From assembly GCF_026226615.1 (NCBI RefSeq), contig NZ_JAJAPB010000010.1:1-64000 (forward strand): DNA of 64,000 nt, read 5' to 3'. Every line of letters starts with the position of its first letter. The first letter of the stretch is position 1. Shown one piece after another: positions 1 through 33,265 of this stretch. A model generated the notes under the pieces. It was not told where the DNA came from. It did not search any database and saw only the letters and a list, made by a program, of their open reading frames with translations. The translations under genes were made by a program, and so were the position numbers. This DNA is from Geovibrio ferrireducens (GTDB taxonomy: Bacteria; Chrysiogenota; Deferribacteres; Deferribacterales; Geovibrionaceae).

Positions 1-68
1 TTACTATTTATAAACTAGTAAATAAATTCTGTCCTCGAATTAGCTAACATATACAGCAATGACGCAAA

Positions 69-118
69 CGCTCCCATAGATGGGAGCGCACCGTGCGTAG
101 TGAAGAACGCGGAAACGT
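69..118 (+). repeat. Truncated copy of the modular hairpin element (copy f)
   Basis: Hairpin P1 is at 69-75/82-88 (CGCTCCC, loop ATAGAT, GGGAGCG), followed by core L at 89-105 with one change (CACCGTGCGTAGTGAAG). Hairpin P2 is degenerate and core R and P3 are not recognisable. It lies 18 bases beyond the stop of the MORN-repeat gene. The preceding bases 59-68 (AATGACGCAA) match the end of the other small repeat at 1280-1296, so two repeat types abut here as they do there. Seen directly by comparison with the copies near 1.6, 24.8 and 32.4 kb. Confidence 0.7.
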
Positions 119-136
119 GAGCCATGCCACCGAGCT

Positions 137-988
137 TTATCTGAACTCCAGCCTGACTAAAGGCATTTCATGCCGTAACTCAAAAGTAACCATCTCAGAA
201 TCCCAGCATTTTACATTCTGCCAGTCCTTAAGCTCCTCCTGAGTGAGGCGGACTTTCCTTGTTTTATCAAAACATACGCCGGAAACAGGCTCGCTGTTGT
301 TATAAATTATTTCAAACGCCTGCTGACCGTTATTAAAATAACTTTTCACCACACCATCGACCTTGCCTTTTATATAGAAAACATCATGACCTAAGGCGCC
401 GTCAGGAAAATAGATTTTTCTTTTCCCATCCGCCAAGCCGTTCACAAACATTACCTCGCTCATGAAACTGCCGTCTCTGTGGTACTCCCGCCGCATTCCA
501 TTGACTATCCCGTCATCAAAATTTAATTCATATTCAATATTTCCATTATCATAGTACTTTGTAGCTAAACCGATTTCCCGGTTATTTTTATACATTACCT
601 CATACTCGGTTTTTCCGTTGGGATAATAAGCTTTCGTGTAGCCGTCAACTTTACCGTGTGCATAATTTCCTTCAAGCTTAAGAGTTCCGTTGTTATAGAA
701 GGAAGCAATTTTTCCATTAGGAGAATTATTTATAAACTGAGCCTCATAAAGTCTTGTTTTATCAGAATTATAAATTCGAAACCAGCCTTCAATCATGCCG
801 TTTTGAAGCTCAAACTCTGTGTATTCTCCATTGCTTTTAGATGCTGTGCATTGCCCTGACGCAACCTCACCATTTTCATACATTATCAAACCGTTGCGCT
901 TTATTACCGATTTTCCATCACACTTAACATCCGCGTAAGAAGATAATGCAATCAGGAAAAATGTAAAAAATACAGCTATGAGTCTCAT
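137..988 (-). CDS. Secreted MORN-variant (YwqK-like) repeat protein
   Basis: A 283-residue protein with a signal peptide (about 1-19, hydrophobic core AVFFTFFLIAL, likely cut after SSYA). The mature part is roughly seven repeats of about 23 residues with the pattern G-x5-YY-x-NGK-x-EYE-x2-Y-x-NG-x3-G, the MORN_2/YwqK type (PF07661). Such repeats form a beta-hairpin ladder; members range from toxin-antitoxin partners to envelope proteins, so no activity can be assigned. An AAGGAG site 5 bases before the ATG supports the start. The gene is monocistronic as far as can be seen: repeats lie on both sides. The signal peptide argues for a periplasmic or exported location rather than a cytoplasmic antitoxin. 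Confidence 0.8.
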   Translation of the reverse strand: MRLIAVFFTFFLIALSSYADVKCDGKSVIKRNGLIMYENGEVASGQCTASKSNGEYTEFELQNGMIEGWFRIYNSDKTRLYEAQFINNSPNGKIASFYNNGTLKLEGNYAHGKVDGYTKAYYPNGKTEYEVMYKNNREIGLATKYYDNGNIEYELNFDDGIVNGMRREYHRDGSFMSEVMFVNGLADGKRKIYFPDGALGHDVFYIKGKVDGVVKSYFNNGQQAFEIIYNNSEPVSGVCFDKTRKVRLTQEELKDWQNVKCWDSEMVTFELRHEMPLVRLEFR

Positions 989-1647: not shown

Positions 1648-1659
1648 ATTTTTCTAAGA

Positions 1660-1760
1660 GGCACAGGAAGTGCCGACGCCGTGCGCAGCGAAGGGCGGTT
1701 AAACCGCCCGCGAGCGTGTATCACAAATTCCCATGGATGGGGAATTTGTGATTGTCAGAA
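1660..1760 (+). repeat. Modular hairpin element, full copy (copy b)
   Basis: P1 GGCAC/GTGCC (1660-1674), core L with GCCGTGCGCAGCGAAG (about 1677-1692), P2 GGGCGGTT/AACCGCCC (1693-1709), core R GCGAGCGTGTAT (1710-1721), P3 CACAAATTCCC/GGGAATTTGTG around ATGGATG (1722-1750), tail ATTGTCAGAA (1751-1760). The tail contains the stop codon of the XRE-cupin gene, which reads leftward into the element at 1757-1755. All three stems differ in sequence from the other copies yet pair perfectly. Confidence 0.8.
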
Positions 1761-24742: not shown

Positions 24743-24813
24743 GTCACCTATACTGCTCTGCTTTCTTTTTTAAAGCATAGAGAACATTTTCAGGATTAGG
24801 CAGACGGCAGTTC
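24743..24813 (-). pseudogene. Duplicate 3' end of the PHP phosphoesterase gene
   Basis: 71 bases that match 24920-24990 at 69 positions. Read in the gene's frame it encodes the same 22-residue tail (from NCRLPNPE to AEQYR) and the same TGA stop. The two differences are GAA/GAG (Glu) and AAG/AAA (Lys), both silent. It has no start and is separated from the intact gene by the hairpin element. Confidence 0.9.
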
Positions 24814-24920
24814 TGTCATAACAATCCAAAATCCGCGCATCCTGCCGGATTTTGGATACACGCTCGCGCCGCTTAAAAAGCGGCTTCGCTCCGCACGGCG
24901 CAACTCCATCCATGGAGTTG
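24814..24920 (-). repeat. Modular hairpin element, full copy (copy c)
   Basis: In element orientation (minus strand): P1 CAACTCC/GGAGTTG with loop ATGGAT (24920-24901), core L CGCCGTGCGGAGCGAAG (24900-24884), P2 CCGCTT/AAGCGG (24883-24869), core R CGCGAGCGTGT (24868-24858), P3 ATCCAAAATCC/GGATTTTGGAT (24857-24824), then a tail reading TGTTATGACAGAA that ends at the duplicated gene end. P1 abuts the PHP stop codon with no base between. Confidence 0.85.
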
Positions 24921-25760
24921 TCACCTATACTGTTCTGCCTTCTTTTTTAAAGCATAGAGAACATTTTCAGGATTAGGCAGACGGCAGTTCCATTTGCCCA
25001 GCTTGACGTTTGTTTTGTTTTCGCCGTGGTAATCGCTTCCTGCGGAGACAGGCAGGCTGAGTTTTTTGGCTAAATCATTAAAAAATAAAGTGTCTTCTTC
25101 CGAGTGGTATGAGCAGTAAGTTTCGACAGCATCAAGCCCCTTATCCATCATCCCTTTGATGTAAGGCAGATAAGCATCCTTCTCCAACCTCATGCTGAAG
25201 GGGTGAGCCAGAATAGTTATTCCGCCCGCAGAGTGTATCATCCCCGCGCTTTCCTCAAAGCTGAACCTTTTTCTCTCCCGGTAAACAGGTTTGCCTTTGC
25301 CCAGATATTTGTCGAATGCCTCTTCCATATCCGCAACAATACCCTCTCTTATCAGAAACTTGGCAATGTGCGGCCTGCCGAGTTCGCCCAGGTTTGAAGT
25401 GCTCACCTCTTCCTCAGTAACATCTCTGCCCACAAGTCTGCCCACCTCTTTGAGCATGCTGTCATTCCGCTCCTTTCTGGCAATGAGAAGCTCATTAAGT
25501 TTTGATGTGAGTCCGGGATTTTTGTAATCTATGAAAAGCCCCACCACATGCATGGTTCCGGGTGAGAACTCAATGCTGATCTCTGTTCCTGCTATCCTTT
25601 CGGTATTGCCTTTTGCAGCAAAAAAATCCGGCAGTCCGGCAACTGTGTCATGATCGGTGAGCGCCAGATGCCTTATCCGTTTTGAATCTGCCATACGCAC
25701 CAGCTCGGCGGGCATTTTGGTTCCGTCAGAAAAAACTGAATGGCAGTGGAGATCTATCAT
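24921..25760 (-). CDS. PHP-domain phosphoesterase (nucleoside 3',5'-bisphosphate phosphatase-like)
   Basis: 279 residues. The PHP metal motifs are DLHCHSVFSDG (H4, H6, D11-type), TDHDTVAGL, ILAHPFSM and AGSDYHGEN, as in the YciV/RNase AM group, which removes 3'-phosphate from pAp and trims RNA 5' ends. AAAGGTGA lies 6 bases before the ATG. The gene's last 22 codons occur again 107 bases beyond its stop (24743-24813), with the hairpin element between. Confidence 0.9.
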   Translation of the reverse strand: MIDLHCHSVFSDGTKMPAELVRMADSKRIRHLALTDHDTVAGLPDFFAAKGNTERIAGTEISIEFSPGTMHVVGLFIDYKNPGLTSKLNELLIARKERNDSMLKEVGRLVGRDVTEEEVSTSNLGELGRPHIAKFLIREGIVADMEEAFDKYLGKGKPVYRERKRFSFEESAGMIHSAGGITILAHPFSMRLEKDAYLPYIKGMMDKGLDAVETYCSYHSEEDTLFFNDLAKKLSLPVSAGSDYHGENKTNVKLGKWNCRLPNPENVLYALKKKAEQYR

Positions 25761-29191: not shown

Positions 29192-30268
29192 ATGCATAAA
29201 ATTGCGGTATTGCCCGGCGACGGCATAGGTCCGGAGGTAATGAAACAGGCCATCAAAGTTCTCGGAAAAATTTCAGAAAAATATAATACAAAATTTGAGT
29301 TCAGCTTCGCCGATGTAGGCGGAATAGCCATAGATAACCACGGAACCCCCCTGCCCGAATCAACACTGAAGCTCTGCGAAGCATCGGAGGCTATCCTCTT
29401 CGGTTCAGTGGGCGGCCCTAAATGGGAGAACCTTCCCCCTGCTCAGCAGCCGGAGAGAGGCGCTCTTCTCCCTCTGAGAAAGCACTTCGGTCTCTTTGCC
29501 AACCTTCGCCCGGTGAAAATTTTCAAAGCGCTTATAGATTCAAGCTCACTTAAAAACTCACTCATCCCCGACGGTCTGGACATTGTTTTCTTCCGTGAGC
29601 TCACCGGCGGAATCTATTTCGGTCAGCCGAAGGAAATAAGCGAAGACAGACAGAGCGCCAGAGACACCATGCTTTATACAGTGCCTGAGGTAGAGCGCAT
29701 AGCAAGACAGGCTTTTGAAGCCGCCAGAATGCGCGGGAAGAAGGTGACAAGTGTGGATAAGGCGAATGTTCTCATGACAAGCGTGCTCTGGAGAGAAACA
29801 GTCACAAGGCTTCACAAAGAGGAGTATTCCGATGTGGAGCTTGCTCATATGTATGTGGACAATGCCGCAATGCAGCTCGTGCGCTACCCCTCACAGTTTG
29901 ACGTTATCGTTACAGAAAACATGTTCGGCGATATTCTCAGCGATGAAGCGGCAATGCTCACAGGATCTCTTGGTATGCTTCCTTCCGCCTCACTTAATGA
30001 GGACGGATTCGGACTTTATGAACCCATCGGCGGCACAGCCCCGGACATAGCCGGACAGAACATAGCAAACCCCATAGCACAGATTATGTCAGCGGCGCTG
30101 ATGCTCCGCTACAGCTTCAAAATGGACGATGCTGCAAGCAACATAGAAAAAGCTATCGAAACCCTCCTCTCAGAAGGCATAAGAACCCGCGACATCTACA
30201 TCGACGGTCAGGGACAAAAACTCGTCAACACCGATGAAATTGGTGACTTGATAGTAAGCAGGATATAA
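29192..30268 (+). CDS. leuB: 3-isopropylmalate dehydrogenase
   Basis: 358 residues. Third step of leucine synthesis, NAD-dependent oxidative decarboxylation. Visible: [21 protein letters not shown], the substrate-binding arginines in [41 protein letters not shown] (metal-binding Asp) and [17 protein letters not shown] (NAD-binding loop). The other leucine genes are not adjacent, so leuB is separated from leuACD here. Confidence 0.96.
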
Positions 30269-30277
30269 CAGCGTAAA

Positions 30278-30425
30278 CACTCCCACGGATGGGAGTGCGC
30301 CGTGCAGAGCAAAACCGCCGCTTTGATTTCGGCGGTTTCTGTACCAAGGCTTGCTGGAAAGCCGCATTCATTGCGGCGCGAGCGGTTCAGCCGGACGACA
30401 GGATGTGCGTCCGGCGATATTAAGA
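30278..30425 (+). repeat. Modular hairpin element, expanded copy (copy e)
   Basis: P1 CACTCCC/GGGAGTG with loop ACGGAT (30278-30297), core L beginning CGCCGTGCAGAGCAAA, P2 AAACCGCCG/CGGCGGTTT (30312-30338), an unmatched 22-base link, an extra hairpin GCCGCA/TGCGGC (30361-30377), GCGAGCGGTT in place of core R, and P3 CCGGACG/CGTCCGG (30391-30414). The tail is not recognisable. The stems are again unique in sequence and pair perfectly. Confidence 0.65.
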
Positions 30426-32098: not shown

Positions 32099-32272
32099 GA
32101 AGCAATCTCTAGGTATATTCGGAGACTGCTTCGTCGCTTGAACTCCTCGCAGTGACACAGCAGTGCGTCATTCTGAGGCTTTAGCCGAAGAATCTCTCAA
32201 TATTATTTCACGGCCAAATCCCTTCCATCAAGCTGTTGAGACTCTTCACCTACGGTTCAGAGTGACATTGAA
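32099..32272. repeat. Two small inverted-repeat elements side by side
   Basis: Bases 32099-32158 are most of a type-M element in inverted orientation: GAAGCAATCTC, GAGACTGCTTC and the 16-base end shared exactly with 1208-1223, but one terminus is missing. Bases 32164-32272 form a second element with ends GCGTCATTCTGA and TTCAGAGTGAC (near-complementary) and inner arms GAAGAATCTC (32187-32196) and GAGACTCTTC (32238-32247). No coding capacity. Confidence 0.65.
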
Positions 32273-32299: not shown

Positions 32300-32342
32300 T
32301 CTATTTCTTTCCCAGTTCCTCTGAACGCTTAGTCGCTTCTTC
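32300..32342 (-). pseudogene. Duplicate 3' end of proC
   Basis: Read in frame on the minus strand it encodes EEATKRSEELGKK and a TAG stop, exactly the end of ProC at 32453-32494. Six of the 13 codons differ (Glu, Ser, Glu, Glu, Leu, Gly) and every difference is silent. It has no start and is separated from proC by the hairpin element. Confidence 0.9.
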
Positions 32343-32452
32343 TGTTTTGATAATCCAAAATTTACCATCCATGGAAATTTTGGATACACGCTCGCGCCGT
32401 GGTAAACACGGCTTCGCTACGCACGGCGCGATTCCGTCATGGAATCGCAGGT
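32343..32452 (-). repeat. Modular hairpin element, full copy (copy d)
   Basis: In element orientation (minus strand): P1 CGATTCC/GGAATCG with loop ATGAC (32447-32429), core L CGCCGTGCGTAGCGAAG (32428-32412), P2 CCGTG/CACGG (32411-32397), core R CGCGAGCGTGT (32396-32386), P3 ATCCAAAATTT/AAATTTTGGAT with loop CCATGGATGGT (32385-32353), tail TATCAAAACAGAA. P1 is 5 bases from the proC stop. Confidence 0.85.
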
Positions 32453-33265
32453 CTATTTCTTCCCAAGCTCTTCCGAACGCTTAGTCGCTTCCTCAACAGC
32501 GTCAATGACAGCGGCGGAGAAGCCGCCTTTTTCAAGCATGTGGACGCCCACAATGGTTGTTCCGCCGGGGGATGTAACCATATCCTTAAGTGCCATGGGA
32601 TGTTCCCCTGTTTCCAGTACAAGCTTAGCGGAACCGTAAACAGTCTGCGCAGCAAGCATACGGGAAGTTTCGCGGCTTAACCCTAGCTTCACGCCCGCAT
32701 CGGAAAGAGCCTCTATAAACTTGAAAACATAAGCAGGGCCGCTACCGGAGAGACCCGTCACAGCGTCCATATATTTTTCCTCTATCACAGCCACCTTGCC
32801 CACAGAGCAGAAAAGCTTGTCCGCGATCTCAAGTTCCGGCTTTCCGGCATATTTCCCGGCGCAGATAGCTGAGGAACCTTCTCCCACAAGTGCGGGGGTA
32901 TTGGACATAACCCTTATGACCCGAAGCCCGCTGAGGTAATGCTCGAAAAACTCGGTTTTCACACCGGCCGCAATGGAAATAAGCAGCTTTTCCTTGAGGA
33001 ACTGGCTTATCTCATCCATAACGTACTTAGCTACCTGCGGTTTTACGCAGATCATTATAATATCGCTCTTTTTCGCGACCGCTATATTATCGGTGGTGAT
33101 GGTGATATTCAGCGATTTGCTTAAATCTTCAAATCTCGATGGTTCCGGGTCAGATGCCATAATGTTTTCAGGTGGTACAAGACCGGAGTTCACAAGCCCT
33201 TTCATCAATGCAAACGCCATGTTTCCTGCCCCGATAAACCCGATCTTTCTGTTACTTAATGACAT
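32453..33265 (-). CDS. proC: Pyrroline-5-carboxylate reductase
   Basis: 270 residues. Last step of proline synthesis. N-terminal NAD(P)-binding GAGNMAFALMKGLV; C-terminal dimerisation domain with the ProC signature GLSGSGPAYVFKFIEALSDAGVKLGL and TSPGGTTIVGVHMLEKGG. Overlaps the upstream hydrolase by 14 bases and is last in its operon. Its final 13 codons recur in recoded form beyond the adjacent hairpin element. Confidence 0.96.
   Translation of the reverse strand: MSLSNRKIGFIGAGNMAFALMKGLVNSGLVPPENIMASDPEPSRFEDLSKSLNITITTDNIAVAKKSDIIMICVKPQVAKYVMDEISQFLKEKLLISIAAGVKTEFFEHYLSGLRVIRVMSNTPALVGEGSSAICAGKYAGKPELEIADKLFCSVGKVAVIEEKYMDAVTGLSGSGPAYVFKFIEALSDAGVKLGLSRETSRMLAAQTVYGSAKLVLETGEHPMALKDMVTSPGGTTIVGVHMLEKGGFSAAVIDAVEEATKRSEELGKK

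Follow-up and report, generated by a model that had tools for sequence, protein, structure and literature searches.

A dispersed three-hairpin repeat behind stop codons in Geovibrio and the duplicated, silently diverged gene ends around it

Small dispersed repeats are usually viewed as intergenic passengers. The element described here, E, is a dispersed extragenic hairpin repeat that often occurs in arrays, which is how REP sequences are defined, and it shares with the RAYT-mobilized REP/BIME repeats a short length, a position behind genes as singletons or tandem arrays, and covarying stems. However, E has three hairpins with CANGGANG loops and is accompanied by duplications of 18–76 nt of host sequence, and no RAYT (Y1_Tnp, PF01797) is present in the three E-bearing genomes that represent the genus (G000, to which the DNA studied here belongs, G004 and G005; one genome per species was compared), which rules RAYT out as the mobility enzyme. 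A resident reverse transcriptase was likewise rejected, RVT_1 (PF00078) being absent in G000 and G005. MITE-type repeats (Correia, ERIC, RUP and others) resemble E in being structured, non-coding, about 100 bp long and present in many copies. E differs from them in its sense placement behind stop codons and in its flanking duplications, which are long and variable and reach to the stop codon, so that there is no fixed short target-site duplication. Terminal inverted repeats were not found in E, and its two ends do not pair in the consensus fold of alignment A1.

Other described systems come close in single respects. MIRU (mycobacterial interspersed repetitive units) are interspersed, tandemly variable repeats that lie at gene junctions and overlap stop codons. 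E shares the interspersed and tandemly variable arrangement at gene junctions, but it is a non-coding, three-hairpin structure and the 18–76 nt that it duplicates are coding sequence. Lambdoid and e14-type phages integrate at icd and restore the gene. As at other phage-occupied gene 3′ ends, the gene keeps a working end and a second, silently different end lies past the insert, an arrangement also seen around E. Nevertheless, E is only 109 bp long, has no integrase, stands behind many different genes and has gene ends that are duplicated locally. Paired GGA/CANGGANG loops are shared with CsrB/RsmZ-type sponges and with CsrA-titrating mRNAs such as the flaA leader of C. jejuni, and csrA is present in the genome; those RNAs are one sRNA or 5′UTR, whereas E consists of dispersed copies of putative CsrA sites behind stop codons. 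An incomplete search of the literature returned no paper describing a repeat of this kind from Geovibrio, Denitrovibrio or other Deferribacterota and none connecting dispersed repeats with CsrA.

In the window, by which we mean the whole 64-kb stretch of Geovibrio ferrireducens DNA analysed, a direct-repeat search retrieved a 43-nt repeat at 32300–32342 and 32452–32494 (37/43 identical, 86%; spacing 152). Its arms are the 3′ end of proC and a second copy of that end, with E between them. A structure model of E has five matches in the window, the proC copy and four others. The features are as follows:

32453–33265, minus strand: proC (pyrroline-5-carboxylate reductase), ORF of 270 aa, stop codon TAG at 32453–32455
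32452–32494, minus strand: inner (working) proC end, last 13 codons, stop codon and 1 nt; one arm of the direct repeat
32343–32451, minus strand (gene-sense): element E behind proC, 109 nt, member of the BLAST family; structure-model match at 32345–32449, 109 bits
32429–32447, minus strand: hairpin P1 of this E, here CGATTCC-ATGAC-GGAATCG, usual loop CANGGANG (alignment A1, pair counts, loop counts)
32385–32428, minus strand: core of E with hairpin P2 (32396–32412), CGCCGTGCGnAGCGAAG ... CGCGAGCGTGTA (alignment A1, pair counts)
32353–32385, minus strand: hairpin P3, apical CATGGATG (CANGGANG) (alignment A1, pair and loop counts)
32300–32342, minus strand: outer (duplicate) proC end, identical 13 residues and TAG, six silent differences
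24921–24990, minus strand: inner 3′ end of gene 24921–25760, the second instance of a duplicated end in the window
24814–24920, minus strand: element E behind gene 24921–25760; structure-model match at 24816–24922
24744–24813, minus strand: outer duplicate of the end of gene 24921–25760, last 22 codons, 2 silent and 0 replacement changes
30276–30425, plus strand: E copy with interrupted core, 8 nt past the stop codon of ORF 29192–30268; structure-model match
1656–1760, plus strand: E copy; structure-model match
67–145, plus strand: degenerate E copy; structure-model match, 31.7 bits

The proC product ends in EEATKRSEELGKK, followed by TAG. The outer copy opens with GA immediately after the ...AAAACA terminus of E. 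The codons that differ (inner/outer) are GAG/GAA, TCG/TCA, GAA/GAG, GAG/GAA, CTT/CTG and GGG/GGA, and all six changes are silent. With a neutral outer copy and a constrained inner one, about 36–38% of changes would be expected to be silent; six of six corresponds to P ~0.003, a single-locus estimate. The sequence-only reading had described this gene end as present twice, recoded by silent changes only and with a hairpin element in between, and the description is confirmed for six of six codons and an element of 109 bp. Readthrough from proC into the outer end was rejected because the spacing of 152 is not divisible by three. Orthologs of proC were found in 12 of 12 genomes of the family, with 93–99% identity inside the genus. 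The G005 junction is the same as that of G000, with both ends identical and more E units behind them, and in G004 no E lies directly behind the gene. At this G004 locus (L079), the end of proC is separated from an E array by two small genes that by eye look like a HEPN/MNT (nucleotidyltransferase) toxin–antitoxin system. As for the interrupted E copy of the window, the ORF ahead of it (29192–30268) is presumably leuB, named by inspection. Some 45–60 nt of other sequence split the core of that copy (30298–30360), and no duplicated gene end was seen by eye behind the ORF.

E is a structured repeat, dispersed in the genome and specific to its lineage, and both of its ends are fairly precise. Read in gene-sense, its approximately 108 nt run from hairpin P1 through a conserved core, which holds hairpin P2, to P3 and a short tail. 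BLAST retrieved 57–59 hits in G000, 74–76 in G004 and 105–109 in G005, with few or none in most of the other genomes among the 12 of the family; a covariance model matched 77 of 77 scored candidates in each of the three genus genomes. Extrapolation from the five matches in 64 kb gives about 230 copies in G000, and the genome-wide copy numbers are lower bounds. The stems are supported by covariation: in 59 diverse copies (alignment A1), 93.8% of cells are paired and 404 cells carry double changes, against 115 in shuffled alignments. Double changes occur in 23 of 26 pairs, none of 500 shuffles reached the observed signal, and the signal was lost when partners were slid. The fold of the window copy is four standard deviations better than those of its shuffles. 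No Rfam family reached its gathering score in the window, and none matched E at E<=1 in eight element loci. Collections of phages and plasmids contained no match to E either, so an origin from one of these was rejected.

Placement of E is biased towards the sense direction. At 83 of 110 arrays the gene on the left points into E; many arrays have the core 19–33 nt past the stop codon, and P1 often begins at the stop codon itself. Remoter relatives were found in two further genera (G002 and G006); the copies examined keep the GGA loops, while the remainder of the sequence differs. In G006, a larger relative of about 143 nt (L236, L242 and L245) has P1 and P3 loops as in E and a different core, and it has at least 31 matches in that genome.

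Among the element loci retrieved from the three genus genomes, which are those covered by the gene-end survey, the 3′ end of the upstream gene is repeated beyond E at 28. The sequence-only reading had proposed looking for other genes whose ends recur behind the element, and these loci bear it out. The duplicates extend 18–76 nt up to the stop codon (the last 5–22 codons) and belong to genes that include, besides proC, a xerD-like gene and atpG, the latter taken to be such from its position ahead of an atpD-like reading frame. In 17 of the 28 cases the duplicate begins exactly with GA. Most outer copies start 40–47 nt past the core, and most left copies end 20–26 nt ahead of it. Tandem repetition of the unit [gene end + E] is shown in G005 and G004; it was seen directly at L111, L112, L126, L178 and L213, and remnants of a second E persist at L019, L034, L040 and L128. 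The inner and outer ends are exactly identical at eight loci (L019, L098, L112, L126, L149, L152, L174 and L178). Many copies with no duplicated end had been counted in advance against the link between element and duplication. Such loci are indeed the majority, about three quarters of arrays showing no recognisable duplicated end. A plain duplication predating the element had been counted against it as well, and none of the retrieved loci has a duplicated end without E.

Direct repeats also flank E away from gene ends, at L133 and L038. Between the atpG-like and atpD-like genes of the ATP synthase operon, E and a duplicated end occupy an equal position in G000 (L034) and G005 (L166); the outer copies have one replacement change each, and these are not shared. 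In G002, which belongs to another genus, related elements lie by eye just 5′ of genes (L226 and L241), apparently with duplicates of the region of ribosome-binding site and start codon on both flanks, which mirrors the situation at the gene ends.

Differences between the two ends are overwhelmingly silent. When the outermost copies were pooled, 38 silent and 6 replacement changes were counted (P 7e-12), in a set of loci that includes mutual orthologs and is thus not fully independent. In the clean class, formed by the 15 loci at which the outer end runs straight into ordinary downstream sequence, there were 28 silent changes and 1 replacement in 201 codons, compared with the 37% silent expected of a decaying outer copy (P ~1e-11). 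In this class the silent changes lean 3′ (P 0.012), and 7 of 15 loci have different stop codons at the two ends. Where a further E copy or remnant follows the outer end, 10 silent and 3 replacement changes were found, and at none of the 13 loci do the two stop codons differ. Since duplicates were detected by nucleotide match and not by protein sequence, with an aligned stop codon required, the search did not favour silent changes. Replacement changes are present at L034, L166, L111 and L131. L010 and L040 have silent-rich differences, yet carry E remnants behind the outer end, and they need a more complex history than the explanation given below.

Comparison with relatives that lack E indicates which end is original. 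In these, the sequence past the native stop codon continues as it does past the outer end (L098 vs L196; L198 vs L197), and the stop codons of E-free orthologs equal that of the outer end for L003, L006, L131 and L198 and in one of two cases for L098. This native downstream join and native stop argue that what was added is E together with the inner copy, and that the outer end with its stop codon is usually the original one. Internal silent sites are less clear-cut: E-free orthologs match the outer end at 17, the inner end at 12 and neither at 7 (stop codons included), and the E-free G004 ortholog of proC matches each end at 2 of 6 codons. With such nearly equal matches neither end is consistently foreign, and the outer end could not be upheld as the systematically older allele at internal codons. 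The comparison with E-free alleles suggested earlier thus favours the outer end for stops and downstream sequence and neither end for internal sites. In one gene (L010/L121/L135), E and the duplicated end occur in each of the three species at one common junction. Its outer copies follow the codons of their own species, with 3–4 of 20 codons differing within a species and, by eye, 13 of 20 between G000 and G005. Identical young ends and own-species codons in outer copies both argue that the duplication arises locally, with the host gene as its source; mixing of alleles would be a separate, later step.

Local duplication with E, later allele exchange and a role of the element in RNA as CsrA hairpins form, taken as a whole, the best explanation, to which we give an even chance. 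E would insert itself, or be retained by selection, in the probably transcribed 3′ region directly behind stop codons. Gaining E, or another copy of it, duplicates a locus-specific host stretch of 18–76 nt that tends to start at GA, as the direct repeats around E and the E-free orthologs show; where this stretch spans the stop codon, an intact gene end is kept on the near side and the outer copy left behind E. Arrays arise by tandem repetition of the unit of host end and E. The copies are identical at first and would later come to differ silently through homologous recombination with diverged alleles with or without E, a crossover within the duplicated end leaving one working end ahead of E and another behind. 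We infer this crossover from the silent excess, the 3′ lean, the exact native downstream join and the native outer stops, and we take alleles that carry E to coexist with alleles that lack it. From time to time, recombination between the repeats would remove E and so return the outer end to work. As silent divergence requires both ends to be under selection, exchange between alleles with and without E would be its most economical cause, and such later exchange, not an element that carries gene ends, probably explains it best.

The phage-like alternative supposes that E is a travelling cassette with a foreign, recoded gene end that integrates in the shared 5′ part and restores the gene, as at icd. 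The geometry would suit it, with an identical 5′ part, a synonymously divergent 3′ part and the original end outside, and in G000 the last 8 proC codons together with E are closer to those of G005 than the outer copy is. However, a single element family stands behind dozens of different genes and therefore cannot carry the end of each, and the young ends at many loci (the eight listed above) are identical. Outer copies carry own-species codons, 109 bp are too short for a recombinase, and the phage and plasmid collections offer no counterpart. We therefore regard this reading as unlikely, and the analogy with phage-borne icd ends made from the sequence alone loses support with it; of the accompanying claim that one end is original and the other arrived with the insertion, the first part stands for the outer end, on the evidence of E-free relatives, and the import is not supported.

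There are also rivals without import. Where direct repeats of 18–76 bp flank hairpins at a distance of about 110 bp, deletions are frequent, and E could therefore often be lost by slippage or recombination between repeats and regained, so that each end would repeatedly be the working one and both are functional in one lineage. The silent-only pattern and the E remnants past some outer ends accord with this, but E could return to an identical junction only from a donor, so that exchange between strains would again be involved, and we consider the idea doubtful. Simple tandem duplication of gene end and E, followed by partial loss of the second E and neutral drift of the outer end, draws on the directly visible units and second-E remnants named above. 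Against it stands the ratio in the clean class, and with the silent excess already disfavouring it we judge it quite improbable. That a dead duplicate has decayed neutrally, the silent changes in proC being a run of chance, has nothing in its favour beyond the small numbers at one locus, and it is barely credible: the silent-only pattern recurs at many loci in three species, which excludes it and sustains the earlier remark that the proC pair does not look like such decay.

The remaining part of our preferred explanation, the role in RNA, rests on the loops. Among aligned copies, the P1 loop contains GGA in 98% and CANGGANG in 83%, and the P3 loop contains GGA in 97% and CA(N)GGANG in 90%. The regulator gene csrA (PF02599) is present in 12 of 12 family genomes. 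Apical CANGGANG hexaloops are high-affinity sites of CsrA/RsmE (PMC4894983, PMC7652899). E thus has GGA in apical loops, the CANGGANG consensus and two sites per molecule, and it is plausible that in RNA it forms a pair of putative CsrA-binding hairpins in 3′UTRs. Judging by the loop consensus, these hairpins would act locally or collectively as a CsrA sink. The long stems of E, atypical of SELEX ligands, speak against a CsrA function. A bolder proposal is that a mobile, RNA-like element installs pairs of putative CsrA hairpins in the 3′UTRs of dozens to hundreds of genes by way of long, variable target duplications, that insertion at the stop codon is harmless and reversible, that ends can pass between alleles whether or not these carry E, and that all copies together act as a CsrA sink distributed over the genome. 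We advance this as a speculation that is probably wrong in at least some part.

The E family is associated with the 3′ ends of genes, which it follows in sense orientation, and it duplicates the coding end at many sites, and its long, variable flanking duplications come without a recognised transposase. If allele exchange has shaped them, the pairs of ends around E would record it codon by codon, and silent-only pairs would offer an inherent measure of how far lineages recombine. Should the loops bind CsrA, the family would spread the sites of a global RNA regulator through 3′UTRs.

The window also contains a second dispersed repeat unlike E (GAGATTGCTTCAC ... CGCAATGACG / CACTGCGAGGAG ... GAAGCAGTCTC), at 1190–1290 and 32100–32200. 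Both copies are intergenic, and one of them lies just past the outer proC end.
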